From the NCBI RefSeq assembly GCF_007997385.1, contig NZ_VOSC01000025.1, positions 292 to 64,291 of the forward strand: a DNA stretch of 64,000 nucleotides, read 5' to 3'. The notes beneath the pieces were generated by a model that searched no databases, had not been told where the DNA came from, and was given only the letters and a program-made list of their open reading frames with translations. The translations under genes were made by a program, and so were the position numbers. Shown here one piece after another: positions 46,361 through 54,479 of this stretch (positions are counted from its first letter, which is position 1; every line of letters starts with the position of its first letter). This stretch comes from Seonamhaeicola algicola. GTDB taxonomy: Bacteria; Bacteroidota; Bacteroidia; Flavobacteriales; Flavobacteriaceae.

Positions 46361-47383
46361 TTAATAAGCTTTAAAAGTAGAGTCTCTAATAATTAAATTA
46401 CCTTTAATTTCTATAGTTTTATTGGTTAGTTCATTGGGGTTTTCAATATCTTCAATTAAATATTTAACTGCAGTAGCGCCTATTTTTTCTCCAGGTTGAT
46501 CAATAGTAGTTAACATAGGCTCAATAATTGTAGAACTAAGTGAATTACTAAAACCAATTACAGCTATATCTTTAGGGATTTTTATGTTGAATTTTTTTAA
46601 GGTTTGAATAACACCAATTGCAGCACTATCAGTAATAGCAAAAATAGCATCAGGTCTTGTTTTTAAGCTTAAAAGTAAGTTTGCCATACGTTTTCCTTGG
46701 CGTAAAGAAATATCATCAACACTAATAATAATTTTTTCGTCTACTTCAATGTTGTGTTCTTTTAAGGCTCTTAAATAACCAGAAAATCGGCGTTCAGAGT
46801 TGTATGAGTATTCATTTTCTTTAATAATAGCAATACGGGTTTTTCCTATGTTAATTAAATGTTCTATAGCATTATAGGCTGCTTCTTCTTCATTTATAAC
46901 TACTTGTGAGCATGGTATTTTGTTTGAAGCTTTATCAAATAAAATAACTGGCACTCTGTCTATAACTTTTAAAATGCGGTCTACCTTTCTTGTAACTTTT
47001 GATATTGACATTAAAATGCCATCAACATTAAATTGTAGCATAGTATTAAGCATTTCAATTTGCTTTTCAGCATCGTTATTAGATTCTGATATAATAACCT
47101 TGTAACCCTTTAAAGTAGCCTCTTCTAAAATACCTTTTAAAATTGTACTGGTAAAATAGTGTGTTATATTGGGTACAACAACACCTATTATATTGGTTTT
47201 TTTTTGCCTAAAACCTTTTGCAAATAAGTTGGGTGTGTAATTTAACTTTGTAGCTAAGGTTTTAACTTTTTGTTTTGTAGCTTCGCTTATGTCAGGATGA
47301 TCATTTAAAGCTCTAGAAACAGTTGATACAGATAAATTTAGAGTTTTAGCAAGCTGTTTTAATGATATGTTTTCTTTCTTCAT
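46361..47383 (-). CDS. LacI-family transcriptional regulator of the glycerate-glycoside locus
   Basis: 340 residues from ATG 47383; the longer frame to 47431 would run through the operator. The LacI helix-turn-helix is at the N-terminus (ISLKQLAKTLNLSVSTVSRALNDHPD split over about 5-30). The periplasmic-binding-like effector domain (about 60-340) has IIGVVVPNITHYF, DGILMSISK and AVIGFSNSL. It is divergent from the TonB-dependent receptor gene, with a palindromic GCAAACGTTTGC between them, so it very likely controls both. The effector is probably the glycoside or a product of its breakdown. Confidence 0.93.
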   Translation of the reverse strand: MKKENISLKQLAKTLNLSVSTVSRALNDHPDISEATKQKVKTLATKLNYTPNLFAKGFRQKKTNIIGVVVPNITHYFTSTILKGILEEATLKGYKVIISESNNDAEKQIEMLNTMLQFNVDGILMSISKVTRKVDRILKVIDRVPVILFDKASNKIPCSQVVINEEEAAYNAIEHLINIGKTRIAIIKENEYSYNSERRFSGYLRALKEHNIEVDEKIIISVDDISLRQGKRMANLLLSLKTRPDAIFAITDSAAIGVIQTLKKFNIKIPKDIAVIGFSNSLSSTIIEPMLTTIDQPGEKIGATAVKYLIEDIENPNELTNKTIEIKGNLIIRDSTFKAY

Positions 47384-47401
47384 AACAATAAAATTGAAAT
47401 T

Positions 47402-47432
47402 GCAAACGTTTGCGGTATCGTTTGCGTGCAAA
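47402..47432. promoter_or_regulatory. LacI-family operators
   Basis: GCAAACGTTTGC (47402-47413) is a perfect 12-bp palindrome with the central CG typical of LacI/CcpA-type sites. A second half-matching site TTTGC-GT-GCAAA lies at 47421-47432. Both are in the leader side of the lacI-type gene and upstream of the receptor promoter. Confidence 0.75.
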
Positions 47433-47471
47433 TATGCTAATTTTTTCGCACTTTTTTTATTGTATTGATTA

Positions 47472-47479
47472 TAAATTTG
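47472..47479 (+). promoter_or_regulatory. -7 box (TAAATTTG) of the TonB-dependent receptor gene
   Basis: TAAATTTG matches TAnnTTTG, 27 bases before the receptor ATG and about 40 bases after the operators. Confidence 0.6.
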
Positions 47480-47506
47480 AGGTATAATTAACTAATTCTA
47501 AATAAG

Positions 47507-50182
47507 ATGAAAAATACTATTTTAACTTTACTATGCTTCTTTAGTGTTTCTGTAATGTTTTCGCAAACAGATATTTCAGGAACTGTAAAAGACCAAAGTG
47601 GAGTACCAGTAACTGGTGCTAATGTGCTTATTTTAAACAGTTCAACTGGTGCAACTACAGATTTTGATGGCAAGTTTAGCTTTAACACAAGTTTAAGCGG
47701 ATTGCAACAAATACAAGTATCATTTATAGGTTATGAAACCTTTACAAAAAACATCACATTAAACGGAACCCCAGTTTCATTACAAATAGTATTGCAAGAA
47801 GGCGGTAATAGTTTAGACGAGGTAGTGCTAACAGCCTCAGCAACGTTTAGATCACAAAAAGATACACCAATGTCTATAAGCTCACTAAAACAGAAAGAAA
47901 TAACCAAGCTTTCTGTAAACTCGCAAGCTGATGTTTTAAGAAGTATTCCAGGTATTACTGCCGAAGGTGGCGGTGGTGAAACAGCTTCAAATATATTTGT
48001 TAGAGGGTTGCCATCTGGCGGGCAATATGTGTTTAATCCGTTACAATATGATGGTATGCCGCTTATGAGTACGTTTGGTTTAAACTCATCGGCGCATGAT
48101 GTGTATGCAAGACCAGATATAGGCTTTAAAGGAGTAGAATTTGTACGTGGTGGTGCCGCAGTTTTATACGGTGCCGGTTCAGTAGCTGGTATTATTAACT
48201 ATACAAGTAAAACGGGCGATTCTAATGACGAAAACATAATTAATGTTGAGTGGGCAGATAAAGGTCGAATTAAAACAGATTTTTATTCAGGCGGAAAATT
48301 AGGAGGCGAAGACTCTAATACATACTATGCATTTACCGGTTTTGTAAGAAAAGATGATGGGCCTATTGAAACAGGTTTACCAACAAAAGGTGTCCAGTTT
48401 AGAGCTAACATAAAACAAAAATTTGAAAACGGATCATTTACAATTCACGGTCAGTTTATAAATGATAAAGCACAGTTTTTTATGCCGTTGCCTTTAGATG
48501 GTGCCAGCAGAACACGATTAACAGGTAATGATGGTGAAGAAGTTTCACAATTATTATCTGGCGAATTAGCACATACATCATTTTTAACAGCAGGCGGTGC
48601 TTATGAAAGCCCAATTGAAGATGGTGTTCATACACAAGGTGGTTATTTAATGGGAGATTTTAACTATAGTTTTGCTGATGATTTAAAATTTAAATCAAAA
48701 GTAAGATACGCAAACTATAAGCATAATTTTGCTTTATATGTTGGTGGTAACGGTGCAAATAACAACCCAATTACGTTAAATGACTATGTAAACAATGTAG
48801 CTCCAGGTAATTTGGGTTACGTTGCTCAATATCAAGGAACAACAGCAAGTATTAATGGTAACGATTTAGTTATTGATAACTTACATATTGACAGATTAAG
48901 ACCAATGACAGATTACTCTGGCGAAGCATCATTAACAAAAACTTTAGAAGCTGAAAACGGCACACATAACATTACAGCAGGTGTGTTTTTAGCACGTACT
49001 GAAGCTGAAGATGTTAATTACCAATACAGAGTTTTATCAGAGTTTAATAACAACCCAAAACTTGTAAACTTAAGCTATACTGATGCTGGTGGAAATAACG
49101 TGGTATTTTCTGAAGGTGGTTTATACAACAGAATAGGTATGACATCAAACAGGTTTTTATCGCAAAATAAAACAGCTTTTTATATTACAGATGAAATGGT
49201 GTTTGATAAATGGCGTTTTGATGTTGGTTTCAGAATTGAAAACACAAAAGGAATATTTAATGACGGAAACATAGTATCAACACAAGTATACAATAACCCT
49301 GAATTAACTCCAGAATTAGCTAACGTAAACTACGCCGATGGTAGCTTTATTAGAGCTGAGGTTGATGCTACTGATTGGGCAGTTTCTTTAGCAGCTCTAT
49401 ACAAATTAAACGAAACCGTTAACCTGTATGCAAACTTTTCAAAAGGGTTTTTCTTTCCACAAATTAGAGGCTTTGCTCCAATTGCAACTGGTGTAACTGG
49501 TAGCAAGTATGACTCAGAAAAAATTATTCAGTTTGAAGCTGGTGCGAAAATAGGTACTCAAAAATTTAAAGGATCATTTGCTGGATATTACGTTGGTTTA
49601 AGTGATAGAATTAAAATAGATCAAGGTTTTAGTAGTGGTACTTTAGTAGATTTATTTCGCTCTGAACAAAGCACAAGAACCTTTGGTTTAGAAACTACTT
49701 TTGATTGGGCATTTGCAAACAACTTAAGCTTAAGAGGTTCTGCAACCTATCAAGCGCATGAAATAAGTAAAAACGAAAGAACAGATTTAGTAGCAAATAC
49801 AACTACTACTGCCGATGAGGGTAATGAATTAGCAAGACAACCAAATTTCTTGGGGTCGGCAGGTGTGTACTATGATAATAATGGATGGGATGCTTTATTC
49901 TCATTAAACCACACGGGTAGCAAGTTTACTTCAGATACTAACACCGTTGAGTTAGATGCCATAACAATAGCACGTATTGGTGCTGGTTATGAATTTCCTA
50001 TGGGAGGTGAAGATAGTACCGATACTTTAAGACTTGGTTTTTCAGTATTCAATTTATTTGATGATGAAGGCGTAACTGAAGGAGACCCAAGAAATATTAA
50101 TCAAGCTGGTGATGCAGAGTTTTTCTTCGGAAGACCAATTTTACCAAGGCGTTTTTTCTTAACGGCTACATTCAATTTTTAA
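47507..50182 (+). CDS. TonB-dependent receptor of the glycerate-glycoside locus
   Basis: 891 residues. Signal peptide MKNTILTLLCFFSVSVMFS, a carboxypeptidase-like regulatory domain (about 23-100, ISGTVKDQSGVPVTGANVL), then TonB box and plug (LDEVVLTASATFRSQKDTPM; LRSIPGITAEGGGGETASNI), then a barrel ending in RRFFLTATFNF. No SusD partner follows, so it is not a SusCD polysaccharide system; a single receptor fits a small ligand. The ligand is inferred from the hydrolase and glycerate kinase downstream. A terminator lies between it and the hydrolase gene. Confidence 0.93.
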   Translation: MKNTILTLLCFFSVSVMFSQTDISGTVKDQSGVPVTGANVLILNSSTGATTDFDGKFSFNTSLSGLQQIQVSFIGYETFTKNITLNGTPVSLQIVLQEGGNSLDEVVLTASATFRSQKDTPMSISSLKQKEITKLSVNSQADVLRSIPGITAEGGGGETASNIFVRGLPSGGQYVFNPLQYDGMPLMSTFGLNSSAHDVYARPDIGFKGVEFVRGGAAVLYGAGSVAGIINYTSKTGDSNDENIINVEWADKGRIKTDFYSGGKLGGEDSNTYYAFTGFVRKDDGPIETGLPTKGVQFRANIKQKFENGSFTIHGQFINDKAQFFMPLPLDGASRTRLTGNDGEEVSQLLSGELAHTSFLTAGGAYESPIEDGVHTQGGYLMGDFNYSFADDLKFKSKVRYANYKHNFALYVGGNGANNNPITLNDYVNNVAPGNLGYVAQYQGTTASINGNDLVIDNLHIDRLRPMTDYSGEASLTKTLEAENGTHNITAGVFLARTEAEDVNYQYRVLSEFNNNPKLVNLSYTDAGGNNVVFSEGGLYNRIGMTSNRFLSQNKTAFYITDEMVFDKWRFDVGFRIENTKGIFNDGNIVSTQVYNNPELTPELANVNYADGSFIRAEVDATDWAVSLAALYKLNETVNLYANFSKGFFFPQIRGFAPIATGVTGSKYDSEKIIQFEAGAKIGTQKFKGSFAGYYVGLSDRIKIDQGFSSGTLVDLFRSEQSTRTFGLETTFDWAFANNLSLRGSATYQAHEISKNERTDLVANTTTTADEGNELARQPNFLGSAGVYYDNNGWDALFSLNHTGSKFTSDTNTVELDAITIARIGAGYEFPMGGEDSTDTLRLGFSVFNLFDDEGVTEGDPRNINQAGDAEFFFGRPILPRRFFLTATFNF

Positions 50183-50216
50183 TTCATTCACAATATAGAT
50201 TAGTTGTTTAGTTTGT

Positions 50217-50258
50217 GCTCACCACCTTTAGGCTAAGGTTGTAGGTGGTGGGCTTTTT
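50217..50258 (+). terminator. Internal terminator between receptor and hydrolase genes
   Basis: GCTCACCACCT / AGGTGGTGGGC, an 11-bp stem with one G-U pair and a 15-base loop, followed by TTTTT. It would make the receptor mRNA more abundant than the downstream enzyme mRNA. Confidence 0.75.
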
Positions 50259-50307
50259 ATTGCCAACTAACACAAAGCACTGTTTTAATTTAAATATAAA
50301 AAATAAC

Positions 50308-51615
50308 ATGAATAACGCTTTATACAAAACAGCACAAGAGGTGTTAAACAATAACTGGAAAAATGGTTTTAGTGTGCCATGTGCTAAGTTATATCCGTTC
50401 CAATGGTTTTGGGATTCAGGTTTAATTGCCATTGGTTTTGCGCATTTTGATATGCCTAAAGCAGAACAAGAAATAAAAACTTTGTTAGATGCCCAATGGG
50501 GAAACGGTTTTATACCGCACATAATATTTCATACTGAAAGTGATACGTATTTTCCGGGGCCAGATTTTCATAGATCAGATTTACACCCATTATCATCAAA
50601 AAAATACAAATCTACTGGTATGACACAGCCACCTGTAACTGGTTTTGTGTTAGAAGAAATTTATAAAATAAGCAAAAATAAACAGGCAACTTTAAAGTTT
50701 ATTCAAGAAGAAATTGATAAAGTGTACTTTAATCATGAATATTTTTACAATAACAGAGATGTAAATAACGAAGGTTTGGTGTATATATACCATAACTGGG
50801 AATCTGGTACTGATAATTCACCAATTTGGGATGATATTTGGAAAACAATGAATCCGCCAGAATACACCTTTGAACGTAGAGATACCACACATGTTGATGC
50901 TTCTGAAAGACCGTCAAAACGTGAGTATGACCACTACTTGCATATCATAGAAATTGCTAAAGAACATAATTATAGCGATGAAAAAATAGCTGAATTATCG
51001 CCATTTTTAGTACAAGATCCATTATTTAATGCTGTGTTAATAAAATCTAATCAAAGTTTAATTAACTTATATGAGCTTATAGGTAATAATGATGCCAAAA
51101 TTAAGCAATTAAAACAATGGCAAGAAAAAGCAATTAAAACATTCAATACTAAATTATTTGATGAAAATTTAGGTGCTTATGTACATTATGATTTAAGAAA
51201 TGAAAAACAATTAAACTTTTTGTCATCATCATCATTTGCACCATTATTCGCAAATATACCAAGCAAGGAAAGAGCTGAAACAATGGTAAATGTAATGATG
51301 GAGAGGTTTGGAGGTAATAACCAATATCTGTGCGCCTCATTTGATCCTACAAGCGAGCGTTTTAACCCTAAAAAATACTGGCGCGGACCGGTTTGGGTAA
51401 ACCTAAACTGGATGCTGTTTAATGGTTTAATAAACTATGGTTACAATACCATTGCAACACGTGTTAAAAATGATACAGTAAGTATTATTGAACATAATGG
51501 ATTTTATGAGTATTTTGATTCTAGAAAAGATATACATGGTACTGTAAACGCAGGTTATGGCGGAAACAATTTTTCATGGAGTGCAGCTTTATTAATAGAT
51601 TTATTAAATAAGTAA
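50308..51615 (+). CDS. GH63/MGH1-like glycoside hydrolase, predicted mannosylglycerate/glucosylglycerate hydrolase
   Basis: 435 residues from ATG 50308; the frame opens earlier at 50245 but that part overlaps the terminator. There is no signal peptide, so it acts in the cytoplasm. The (alpha/alpha)6 barrel of the MGH1-like/GH63 group is indicated by PFQWFWDSG (about 32), STGMTQPPVTGFV (about 110), HNWESGTDNSPIWDDIW (about 165, with the probable acid aspartate), YWRGPVWVNLNWMLFNGL (about 355), YEYFDS (about 400, probable base glutamate) and GGNNFSWSAALLID. Characterised bacterial relatives of this size split mannosylglycerate or glucosylglycerate to hexose plus glycerate. The glycerate kinase in the same block supports that reaction. 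Alternatives are other alpha-glucosides or alpha-mannosides. Confidence 0.85.
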   Translation: MNNALYKTAQEVLNNNWKNGFSVPCAKLYPFQWFWDSGLIAIGFAHFDMPKAEQEIKTLLDAQWGNGFIPHIIFHTESDTYFPGPDFHRSDLHPLSSKKYKSTGMTQPPVTGFVLEEIYKISKNKQATLKFIQEEIDKVYFNHEYFYNNRDVNNEGLVYIYHNWESGTDNSPIWDDIWKTMNPPEYTFERRDTTHVDASERPSKREYDHYLHIIEIAKEHNYSDEKIAELSPFLVQDPLFNAVLIKSNQSLINLYELIGNNDAKIKQLKQWQEKAIKTFNTKLFDENLGAYVHYDLRNEKQLNFLSSSSFAPLFANIPSKERAETMVNVMMERFGGNNQYLCASFDPTSERFNPKKYWRGPVWVNLNWMLFNGLINYGYNTIATRVKNDTVSIIEHNGFYEYFDSRKDIHGTVNAGYGGNNFSWSAALLIDLLNK

Positions 51616-51647
51616 TAAGTAAAATAAACATTTAAAAAATAGTCATT

Positions 51648-53255
51648 ATGAATTACATAGATTATATCATTATTGTAGTGTATCTACTAGGTTTTTTAGG
51701 AATTGGCTATTTTTTTAAAGAAAATAATAATTCTAAAGATTACTTTTTGGGAGGGCAATCAATGGGGTGGTTCCCATTAAGTTTGTCAACTATGGCTACC
51801 CAATTATCTGCCATAAGTTTTATATCTGCACCAGCATTTGTTGGCTTAAAAAATGGTGGCGGCTTGCAGTGGTTAACTTATGAATTTGGCGTGCCACTAG
51901 CTATGGCATTTTTATTAATAGCTATTATTCCATCATTATACAAATCGGGTATAGTAAGTGTTTATGAGTATTTAGAAAAACGTTTTGATGCCTCATCACG
52001 TTTATTAATAAGTTTTGTATTTCAAATCAGTCGTTCAGTAGCAACAGGTGTTATGGTGTACACTATGGCTTTAATTTTACAAGCTACCATTGGTATTGAG
52101 TTCTGGATTTCTATATTAATTATAGGTGCCATAACCATGATATATTCATTTCAAGGCGGTATGAAAGCTGTTATTTGGGGTGATGTTATTCAAATGCTAA
52201 TTCTGTTTTTTGGTATTATTATTTGTTTAATTTATGGTTTAATTGAATTGGGTGGTTTTGATAACTTTTTAACCCACGTTGATAAAGACAGGTTAACGGC
52301 CGTAGATTTTTCTAAATGGGGATTTAACAACGCCGATAAAAATGACGAATTTGGCTTTTGGCCTATGGTAATAGGTGGTTTTTTCTTGTATGCTTCCTAC
52401 TACGGAACAGATCAAACACAATCACAACGGTTATTGTCTGCCAAAGGCATGCCAACTATAAAAAAGTTGTTGTTAGCAAATGGCCTATTTCGTTTTCCTA
52501 TAACACTAACCTATTGTATTATGGGCTTGGTTTTAGGAACCTTATTGTTGCAAGATGCAAGTTTTCAAAGTATGATGGATAGCGTCTATCAATCAAATAT
52601 TACAAGTTTAGAAGGCAAAAAAGCCGATTTAATGGTGCCTGTTTTCATCATAAAATATTTACCAAATGGTATTATTGGTATTTTAATAGTAGCAATAATG
52701 TCTGCAGCAATGTCATCATTAAGTTCTACAGTAAACTCACTATCTGCTGTGTCTTTAGAAGATTTTGTTAAACGTTTCAAACCAAACATGACTGATAAGC
52801 AATATGTAATGAATTCTAGGTTATTATCGCTTTTTTGGGGTTTAGTGTGTTTGTTTTTTGCATTTTTTGCGGGTAGTATTGAAGGTACTGTAATAGAAGT
52901 TATAAACAAAATAAGTTCTGTGTTTTATGGGCCTATTTTAGCAGCATTTATTTTAGCAATTTTAACCAAAAAAACACATGCATTAGGCGCAAACATAGGT
53001 ATAATTGCGGGTGTTTTGTTTAATATGTATTTATGGCTTTATGTGCCACAAGTATTTTGGTTTTGGTGGAATACTATTGGGTGTTTAGTTACAATTATTG
53101 TGGCTTACACTATCAGTTTTATTATTAAGAAGGAAACTAAGCAAGGCTTAGAGGTTGTGTTTTATAAAGCAGGAAAGAAAGAAGTATTTATTTTACTAAC
53201 ATATTTTGTGGTTATAGCGTTGTTGGCTATATCATTATCAAAAATATTAAGTTAA
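51648..53255 (+). CDS. Sodium:solute symporter (SSS family)
   Basis: 535 residues with about 13-14 membrane segments. Family features: YFLGGQSMGWFPLSLSTMAT (about 33), LSAISFISAPAFVGLKNGG and the later MSAAMSSLSSTVNSLSAVS (about 345), which corresponds to the conserved sodium-site helix. SSS proteins bring sugars, amino acids or organic acids across the inner membrane with sodium. Placed between the hydrolase and glycerate kinase genes, it should import the intact glycoside. It starts 33 bases after the hydrolase stop. Confidence 0.93.
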   Translation: MNYIDYIIIVVYLLGFLGIGYFFKENNNSKDYFLGGQSMGWFPLSLSTMATQLSAISFISAPAFVGLKNGGGLQWLTYEFGVPLAMAFLLIAIIPSLYKSGIVSVYEYLEKRFDASSRLLISFVFQISRSVATGVMVYTMALILQATIGIEFWISILIIGAITMIYSFQGGMKAVIWGDVIQMLILFFGIIICLIYGLIELGGFDNFLTHVDKDRLTAVDFSKWGFNNADKNDEFGFWPMVIGGFFLYASYYGTDQTQSQRLLSAKGMPTIKKLLLANGLFRFPITLTYCIMGLVLGTLLLQDASFQSMMDSVYQSNITSLEGKKADLMVPVFIIKYLPNGIIGILIVAIMSAAMSSLSSTVNSLSAVSLEDFVKRFKPNMTDKQYVMNSRLLSLFWGLVCLFFAFFAGSIEGTVIEVINKISSVFYGPILAAFILAILTKKTHALGANIGIIAGVLFNMYLWLYVPQVFWFWWNTIGCLVTIIVAYTISFIIKKETKQGLEVVFYKAGKKEVFILLTYFVVIALLAISLSKILS

Positions 53256-53284
53256 AATAGTTATGTTGTTTAATAGGCAGAATG

Positions 53285-53311
53285 AAGCTGTTTAATAAAA
53301 GCAGCTTTTTT
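53285..53311 (+). terminator. Weak terminator-like hairpin before the glycerate kinase gene
   Basis: AAGCTG / CAGCTT, a 6-bp stem with an 11-base loop, followed by TTTTTT, 30 bases after the symporter stop. Read-through would be needed to express the kinase from the operon promoter. Confidence 0.45.
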
Positions 53312-53330
53312 CACAATGAATTATACATTA

Positions 53331-54479
53331 ATGAAAGTAGTAATTGCCCCCGATAAATTTAAAAATTCACTAACAGGTGAAGATTTTTGTAATGCCGTTG
53401 AAGCAGGTTTTTTAGCTAAAAACTCTGGCGTTGAAATTTTAAAGTTACCATTGGCCGATGGGGGAGATGGTACTATTGATGTTGTAAACTATTATTTAAA
53501 AGGAAGTAAAGTAAAATTAGTAGTTAATAATCCGTTTTTTGAAGCTGTTGAAGCCTCTTATTTATATGCCGAAAACACCAAAACAGCTTTTATTGAAATG
53601 GCTGAAGCTTCAGGGGTTAAATTACTAAAACCAAAACAGTTTGATTGTAAAAATGCGTCTACTTTTGGTACAGGCGAGTTAATAGAAGATGCCTTAAATA
53701 AAGGTGCTAAACATATAATTTTAGGCATTGGCGGAAGCGCCACTAACGATTGTGGAGTGGGTATGGCTACGGCATTAGGCTATAGGTTTTTTAATGATAA
53801 CAACCAAGAGGTTGAGCCTATTGGTGCTAATCTTTCAGAAATTAAAAAAATATGTGTGTTAAAAGCACATCCTAGATTGCAAACTGTTAAGTTTAGCGTA
53901 GCTTGCGATGTTACAAACCCGTTATACGGAAAAAACGGAGCCGCTTACGTATATGCTGCTCAAAAAGGCGCCACTAAGCAAGATATAAAAATGTTAGATA
54001 AAGGCTTACAAGATTTTGCAAAACACCTAGAGGCTACTTTTAAAATTAATGTGCAAAGTATAGAAGGTGCAGGTGCCGCAGGCGGTATGGGGATTGCCTC
54101 TAAATTGTTTTTAAAAGGAGAACTAATTCCGGGTATTGAGCTTATTAAAAATTTAGCAGATTTTAATACTAAAATAGCTAAAGCCGATTGGATTATTACA
54201 GGTGAAGGGAAATTAGACACGCAAACAATGTCTGGTAAAACCATTCAAGGCGTGTTAACTTCCGCGAAAGCGAAAAATATAAAAGTTGCTGCTTTTTGTG
54301 GTGCTGTAGATTTATCAAAAAACGATATAAATACTATGGGAATTACTTACGTAGATGCTGTTATTGCAAAAGCAAAATCACTTGAAGATGCTATGCAAAA
54401 CAGTTATAATTATGTAAGAGAAATTGCTGAAACCTTTGCATTATCACTATTTAGTAGTAAAACAACAAGGTTAAAATAG
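53331..54479 (+). CDS. Glycerate kinase
   Basis: 382 residues from ATG 53331 (MKVVIAPDKFKNSLTGEDFC); an ATG 15 bases upstream adds five residues and is less like the family. It phosphorylates glycerate with ATP; GlxK/GarK-type members mostly make 2-phosphoglycerate. Conserved parts: LPLADGGDGTIDV (about 45), LGIGGSATNDCGVGMATALG (about 130), GAGAAGGMGIAS and WIITGEGKLDTQTMSGKT (about 285). As the last gene of the block, it channels glycerate released by the hydrolase into glycolysis. It is convergent with DUF3098. Confidence 0.95.
   Translation: MKVVIAPDKFKNSLTGEDFCNAVEAGFLAKNSGVEILKLPLADGGDGTIDVVNYYLKGSKVKLVVNNPFFEAVEASYLYAENTKTAFIEMAEASGVKLLKPKQFDCKNASTFGTGELIEDALNKGAKHIILGIGGSATNDCGVGMATALGYRFFNDNNQEVEPIGANLSEIKKICVLKAHPRLQTVKFSVACDVTNPLYGKNGAAYVYAAQKGATKQDIKMLDKGLQDFAKHLEATFKINVQSIEGAGAAGGMGIASKLFLKGELIPGIELIKNLADFNTKIAKADWIITGEGKLDTQTMSGKTIQGVLTSAKAKNIKVAAFCGAVDLSKNDINTMGITYVDAVIAKAKSLEDAMQNSYNYVREIAETFALSLFSSKTTRLK

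Follow-up and report, generated by a model that had tools for sequence, protein, structure and literature searches.

Red algae and cyanobacteria contain small glycosidic osmolytes, a labile carbon pool for which, to our knowledge, few uptake routes are known. In Escherichia coli, the regulated mngR-mngA-mngB system scavenges mannosylglycerate, which is phosphorylated on uptake by a PTS, and includes a GH38 enzyme. E. coli YcjM is annotated and reported as a glucosylglycerate phosphorylase. In flavobacteria, digeneaside (mannosylglycerate) is among the possible substrates (PMC6298971), and PMC8072126 reports predicted genes for its breakdown in Zobellia galactanivorans (citing Barbeyron et al. 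2016) and again in Maribacter dokdonensis 62-1. Among hydrolases, ThMGH-type enzymes cleave both mannosylglycerate and glucosylglycerate, and MhGgH of Mycolicibacterium hassiacum, whose catalytic and substrate-contacting residues were listed by Cereija et al. (PMC6608630), cleaves neither glucosylglycerol nor glucosylglycolate.

Here, we analysed a 64,000-nucleotide stretch of Seonamhaeicola algicola DNA (the window) from a genome of 3.7 Mb with a completeness estimate of 100%. Five of its genes very likely constitute an inducible operon for scavenging 2-O-alpha-glycosyl-D-glycerate, with mannosylglycerate (digeneaside) as the most likely solute and glucosylglycerate probably used too.

The five-gene block and its hydrolase

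The block comprises a LacI-family regulator on the minus strand (46361..47383; PF00356 and PF13377), the probable repressor of divergent promoters, followed on the plus strand by a TonB-dependent receptor of type A (47507..50182; 891 aa; PF13715, PF07715, PF00593), a GH63 mannosylglycerate/glucosylglycerate hydrolase of the MGH1-like kind (50308..51615; 435 aa; PF22422, 1.4e-85), a sodium:solute symporter (SSS) of type A (51648..53255; 535 aa; PF00474 and TIGR00813, the latter at 248.5 bits against a cut-off of 184), and a glycerate kinase of the GarK/GlxK type (53316..54479; PF02595, 3.3e-132, 441 bits). The kinase also gave a full-length family match to TIGR00045 (415 bits, cut-off 168). In profile searches, all five proteins matched these families far over the curated Pfam cut-offs, and the five open reading frames named in the initial annotation lie at the coordinates given there. 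The most likely lacI start is ATG 47383 rather than the listed TTG 47431, because the latter would place a conserved operator (47402-47413) within the gene. For the hydrolase, GTG 50245 was rejected as the start and replaced by ATG 50308, and the kinase may start at its second ATG, 53331.

The initial annotation had also described an osmolyte system instead of a polysaccharide locus, without SusD, hexokinase or secreted enzyme. This description holds: none of the three is encoded in the block, and the receptor, at 97 bits, stays below the SusC/RagA cut-off of 368 bits, setting the block apart from SusCD-type polysaccharide utilisation loci. No signal peptide was seen in the hydrolase, and the two segments previously picked out in it, HNWESGTDNSPIW and STGMTQPP, were both found.

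The closest hydrolases were those of Algibacter, with up to 83% identity, and the best solved relatives were Thermus TTHA0978 (ThMGH; E 2e-89, 39% identity over 406 positions) and mycobacterial MhGgH. Of the 19 catalytic and substrate-contacting residues of MhGgH, 18 are identical in the window hydrolase, while Q434 is replaced by the Phe of TTHA0978, so that the residues of the sugar (-1) and glycerate (+1) subsites are kept. These include the catalytic acid Asp and base Glu (window codons 50812 and 51508, corresponding to D182 and E419) and a complete glycerate-binding subsite (Y36, W40, Y88, R216, and Y375 equivalents). Across 79 Bacteroidota homologues, 18 of the 19 pocket positions, that Phe included, are invariant, and the remaining one is Phe or Tyr. 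Given that the glycerate subsite is conserved and that MhGgH rejects glucosylglycerol and glucosylglycolate, we argue that the substrate is a glycerate glycoside.

An AlphaFold model of the hydrolase built with 17 sequences (pLDDT 89.8) matched 4wva/4wvc and the MhGgH structures over its full length, with query-normalised TM scores of 0.83-0.93, mostly 0.86-0.93, and 4wvc as top PDB match (TM 0.88). The full-length match to 4wva-c and 5ohc fits an (alpha/alpha)6 barrel with a cap, the cap not having been inspected on its own. YgjK and trehalases were far weaker matches. The active-site identity with characterised enzymes and the fold match support the activity originally predicted. The NCBIfam equivalog for glucosylglycerate hydrolase, NF047898, gave 322 bits, under its curated cut-off of 550, and by sequence we name the protein as MGH/GgH-type, not as a member of that equivalog.

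Conservation of the block and the predicted sugar

We surveyed the neighbourhoods of 80 loci from GTDB genomes. A divergent lacI/receptor pair stands beside the hydrolase gene in 55 of them, mostly with symporter and kinase next, while the surroundings are otherwise unrelated. Given that this arrangement recurs in dozens of genomes and many genera with unrelated flanks, it is far beyond chance, and the five-gene block, for which a search in other Flavobacteriaceae had been suggested, is conserved there. Outside this family, a Saprospiraceae MAG (L151) has a receptor-hydrolase-symporter-kinase block at 40-57% identity in which no lacI was seen. A GNAT acetyltransferase gene, absent from the block in the window, is repeatedly located between hydrolase and symporter (L033:8652-9260, L036:8673-9284, L037, L049, and more than 15 of L074-L153).

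Co-occurrence was assessed in 201 genomes of the family, one per genus, 31 of which have a hydrolase orthologue. Receptor orthologues (E <= 1e-120) were found in 17 of the 201; all 17 genomes are hydrolase-positive and all 17 receptors adjoin the hydrolase, despite many TonB-receptor candidates per genome (hypergeometric 1e-16, uncorrected for phylogeny). This strict co-occurrence is in line with the single pathway, receptor included, that had been proposed, the substrate of the receptor itself being predicted. Glycerate kinase was present in 31/31 hydrolase-positive versus 60/170 hydrolase-negative genomes, with P values that ignore phylogeny, as expected if it acts after the hydrolase, the role initially assigned to it; the kinase in the window is the only one in its genome (a single profile match).

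The kinase could instead belong to an unrelated pathway and the hydrolase act on another alpha-glycoside, such as trehalose, kojibiose, sucrose, or glucosylglycerol, given that trehalases and YgjK are clan relatives. We consider this highly improbable: the glycerate-binding subsite is complete, trehalase and YgjK structures match far less well than those of the glycerate glycoside hydrolases, MhGgH rejects glucosylglycerol (PMC6608630), and every hydrolase-positive genome has the kinase.

Another reading is that the cell makes a compatible solute itself and turns it over internally with the hydrolase, as happens in Mycolicibacterium, where MhGgH recycles internal glucosylglycerate; the transporters would then act on something else. 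A deep clade of ten hydrolase-symporter(-kinase) loci that lack lacI and receptor (L134-L137, L140, L142-L146) would be compatible with such a role. However, the hydrolase is conserved together with receptor and symporter, the operator lies in the receptor promoter, and neither mannosyl-3-phosphoglycerate synthase nor GpgS over its cut-off was found in the genome, so that the solute appears to be imported rather than made by either of these routes; internal turnover is therefore very unlikely here. Most loci of the deep clade adjoin MurQ-like and DUF4249/TonB-receptor genes, a neighbourhood that we rejected as an alternative uptake route, as it adjoins isocitrate dehydrogenase and may reflect synteny alone.

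Scavenging of an external glycosyl-glycerate thus remains our preferred reading, and additions to the block in relatives bear on the sugar. A mannose-6-phosphate isomerase (PMI) gene lies directly 3' of the kinase in six relatives (L036, L075, L078, L081, L083, and L152), and three relatives (L117, L139, and L141) have a YcjM-like gene between those for symporter and kinase. The YcjM-like protein of L044 (5919-7613), from the same genome as L139, is 41% identical to E. coli YcjM along the entire protein. In L044/L139, L117, and L141, a phosphorylase homologue and the hydrolase occur in one block, two routes for one solute. Both kinds of addition fit the glycosyl-glycerate substrate put forward in the initial annotation, and these gene contents suggest a cassette serving both sugars; mannosyl versus glucosyl had rightly been kept open there.

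The same system could have glucosylglycerate, found in marine cyanobacteria and bacteria, as its natural substrate rather than mannosylglycerate. The glucosylglycerate phosphorylase genes within the block of three relatives point in this direction, as do the cleavage of both glycosides by the enzyme family and the commonness of glucosylglycerate in marine cyanobacteria according to the title of Klahn 2010 (cited in PMC11009771). Against it, the six relatives with PMI in the block are close to the clade of the window, the block in the window encodes no glucosylglycerate phosphorylase, and its pocket Phe is that of ThMGH, in contrast to the Gln of MhGgH. The symporter of all three phosphorylase loci is of the other type, SSS B, versus type A in four of the five compared PMI loci, a suggestive pattern in which numbers are small. 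Glucosylglycerate as the natural substrate is thus possible and the less likely choice; in our judgement, mannosylglycerate is, with reasonable likelihood, the main substrate, and glucosylglycerate is accepted too.

The block in the window encodes no hexose kinase or PMI. Elsewhere in the genome, two PMIs were found, one of them within a mannan-type locus (L070:1-10166) that also encodes a GH130 phosphorylase, a GH2 mannosidase, and an SSS symporter. The one ROK kinase found in the genome is a polyphosphate glucokinase, and glucokinase PF02685 was absent in a profile search whose controls worked. At a further locus of this genome (L073:5078-9340), probably one for sucrose metabolism, a gene that fuses sucrose-phosphate phosphatase to a GH100/MGH-clan hydrolase precedes genes for a GT4 sucrose-phosphate-synthase-like protein and a PfkB kinase.

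Operator, hairpins and transporter types

In an unbiased palindrome count over lacI-receptor gaps, the perfect palindrome GCAAACGTTTGC ranked first, with exact copies in 37/56, and it was present at one mismatch or fewer in 50/55 related gaps. The copy in the window (47402..47413) is the sole perfect one in the 3.7-Mb genome. A second, degenerate copy, GGTATCGTTTGC, is located 12 bp downstream (47414..47425); related gaps often hold two copies at this tandem spacing, the second often being a near-perfect palindrome. From this conservation, GCAAACGTTTGC is the probable LacI operator. Genome sites within one mismatch numbered 10 versus 15 in a reversed control, an absence of excess that gives no indication of a wider LacI regulon. 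The Bacteroidota -7 promoter consensus is TAnnTTTG, which TAAATTTG (47472..47479, plus strand) fits as a candidate promoter element by its letters.

A terminator-like or attenuator hairpin with a U-tract lies between the receptor and hydrolase genes (50217..50258, plus strand; folding -28.2 kcal/mol, z -3.1). Under one rule, such an element was detected in 40/59 relatives, and dinucleotide-shuffled sequences gave 1.5 +/- 1.3. Among 12 near relatives, pairing holds in 99% of cells, and 5 of the 11 pairs covary, with changes on both sides. The hairpin probably acts as an intrinsic attenuator that sets receptor over enzyme levels; the hydrolase may have its own separate promoter, which is not our preferred reading. 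A second terminator-like hairpin (AAGCTG...CAGCTT with a T-run; 53285..53311, plus strand) precedes the kinase gene, where such an element occurs in just 3/67 relatives.

The receptor consists of an N-terminal CarboxypepD_reg_2 domain, a plug, and a barrel, and the PDB relatives of the symporter are sodium/iodide, multivitamin, monocarboxylate, and glucose cotransporters. Each of the two transporters falls into two deeply diverged types (identity within/between types of 0.69/0.48 for the receptor and 0.76/0.55 for the symporter), unlike LacI and the hydrolase, each of which forms a single continuum. On the hydrolase tree, receptor and symporter each switch type at least 10 times, an approximate count from a quick tree with open forks. 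Even close relatives whose flanking genes are shared differ in their receptor/symporter combination (A/A in the window, A/B in L074, B/B in L075, and B/A in L080). Algibacter-like genomes show such switching at one syntenic site, and L076/L077 have a third receptor form. The first ~100 residues of the receptor barely track type, while plug and barrel do, a sequence pattern as expected of replacement by recombination. A less probable reading is that the cassette is a modular osmolyte-uptake island, in which receptor and symporter might be swapped as whole alleles, retuning the preference for mannosyl- or glucosylglycerate or escaping receptor-using phages, with regulator, operator, and hydrolase fixed. 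The locus thereby gives a clear-cut example of exchange between transporter alleles within a conserved operon.

Protein families, active-site identity, fold, co-occurrence, and operator and hairpin conservation were computed here, and we infer from them how the operon would be used by the cell. The dedicated TonB-dependent receptor would carry the glycoside across the outer membrane and the Na+-coupled symporter across the inner one, after which the cytoplasmic GH63 enzyme would hydrolyse it, with inversion, to hexose and D-glycerate. Glycerate kinase would then yield phosphoglycerate for glycolysis, while the hexose would be phosphorylated by a kinase encoded elsewhere and mannose, if this is the product, converted by one of the two PMIs. 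LacI on the tandem palindrome between the divergent genes would repress both until its presumed ligand is present, and the hairpin 3' of the receptor gene would cut read-through, leaving receptor in excess over the enzymes.

Comparison with known systems

With this locus, the predicted use of a TonB-dependent receptor by a sub-300-Da solute can be tested directly, and the combination of receptor type, hydrolase, and operator could serve as a genomic marker for digeneaside/glucosylglycerate use in many Flavobacteriaceae genera. Predictions of this kind of cassette exist from Zobellia and Maribacter (PMC8072126), likewise as a flavobacterial gene set for digeneaside, and by sequence the locus in the window is a further member with a predicted substrate. 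Zobellia uliginosa and Z. barbeyronii (L102 and L106) have lacI, receptor, hydrolase, symporter, and kinase in the same order, and the block in the window is very probably the same cluster as the predicted Zobellia digeneaside genes, as judged by gene content and order. The literature accessible to us mentions neither operator nor hairpin, and neither the split into two types of each transporter nor the additions of PMI and phosphorylase.

Among characterised enzymes, Thermus thermophilus TTHA0978 (GH63; PDB 4wva-c) shares all 19 pocket residues and the modelled fold with the window hydrolase, and differs in being the enzyme of a thermophile. MhGgH (PDB 5ohc; PMC6608630) shares the fold and all pocket residues except Q434; its role is the recycling of solute inside the cell, and its preference is for the glucosyl substrate. 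The E. coli ycj locus is linked to this cassette by the YcjM-like gene within window-type blocks of three relatives, but has an ABC transporter and works by phosphorolysis, and its operon encodes neither a GH63 enzyme nor a TonB receptor. The mngR-mngA-mngB system has the same predicted substrate as the locus in the window and is likewise a regulated scavenging system, yet the two have no homologous parts.
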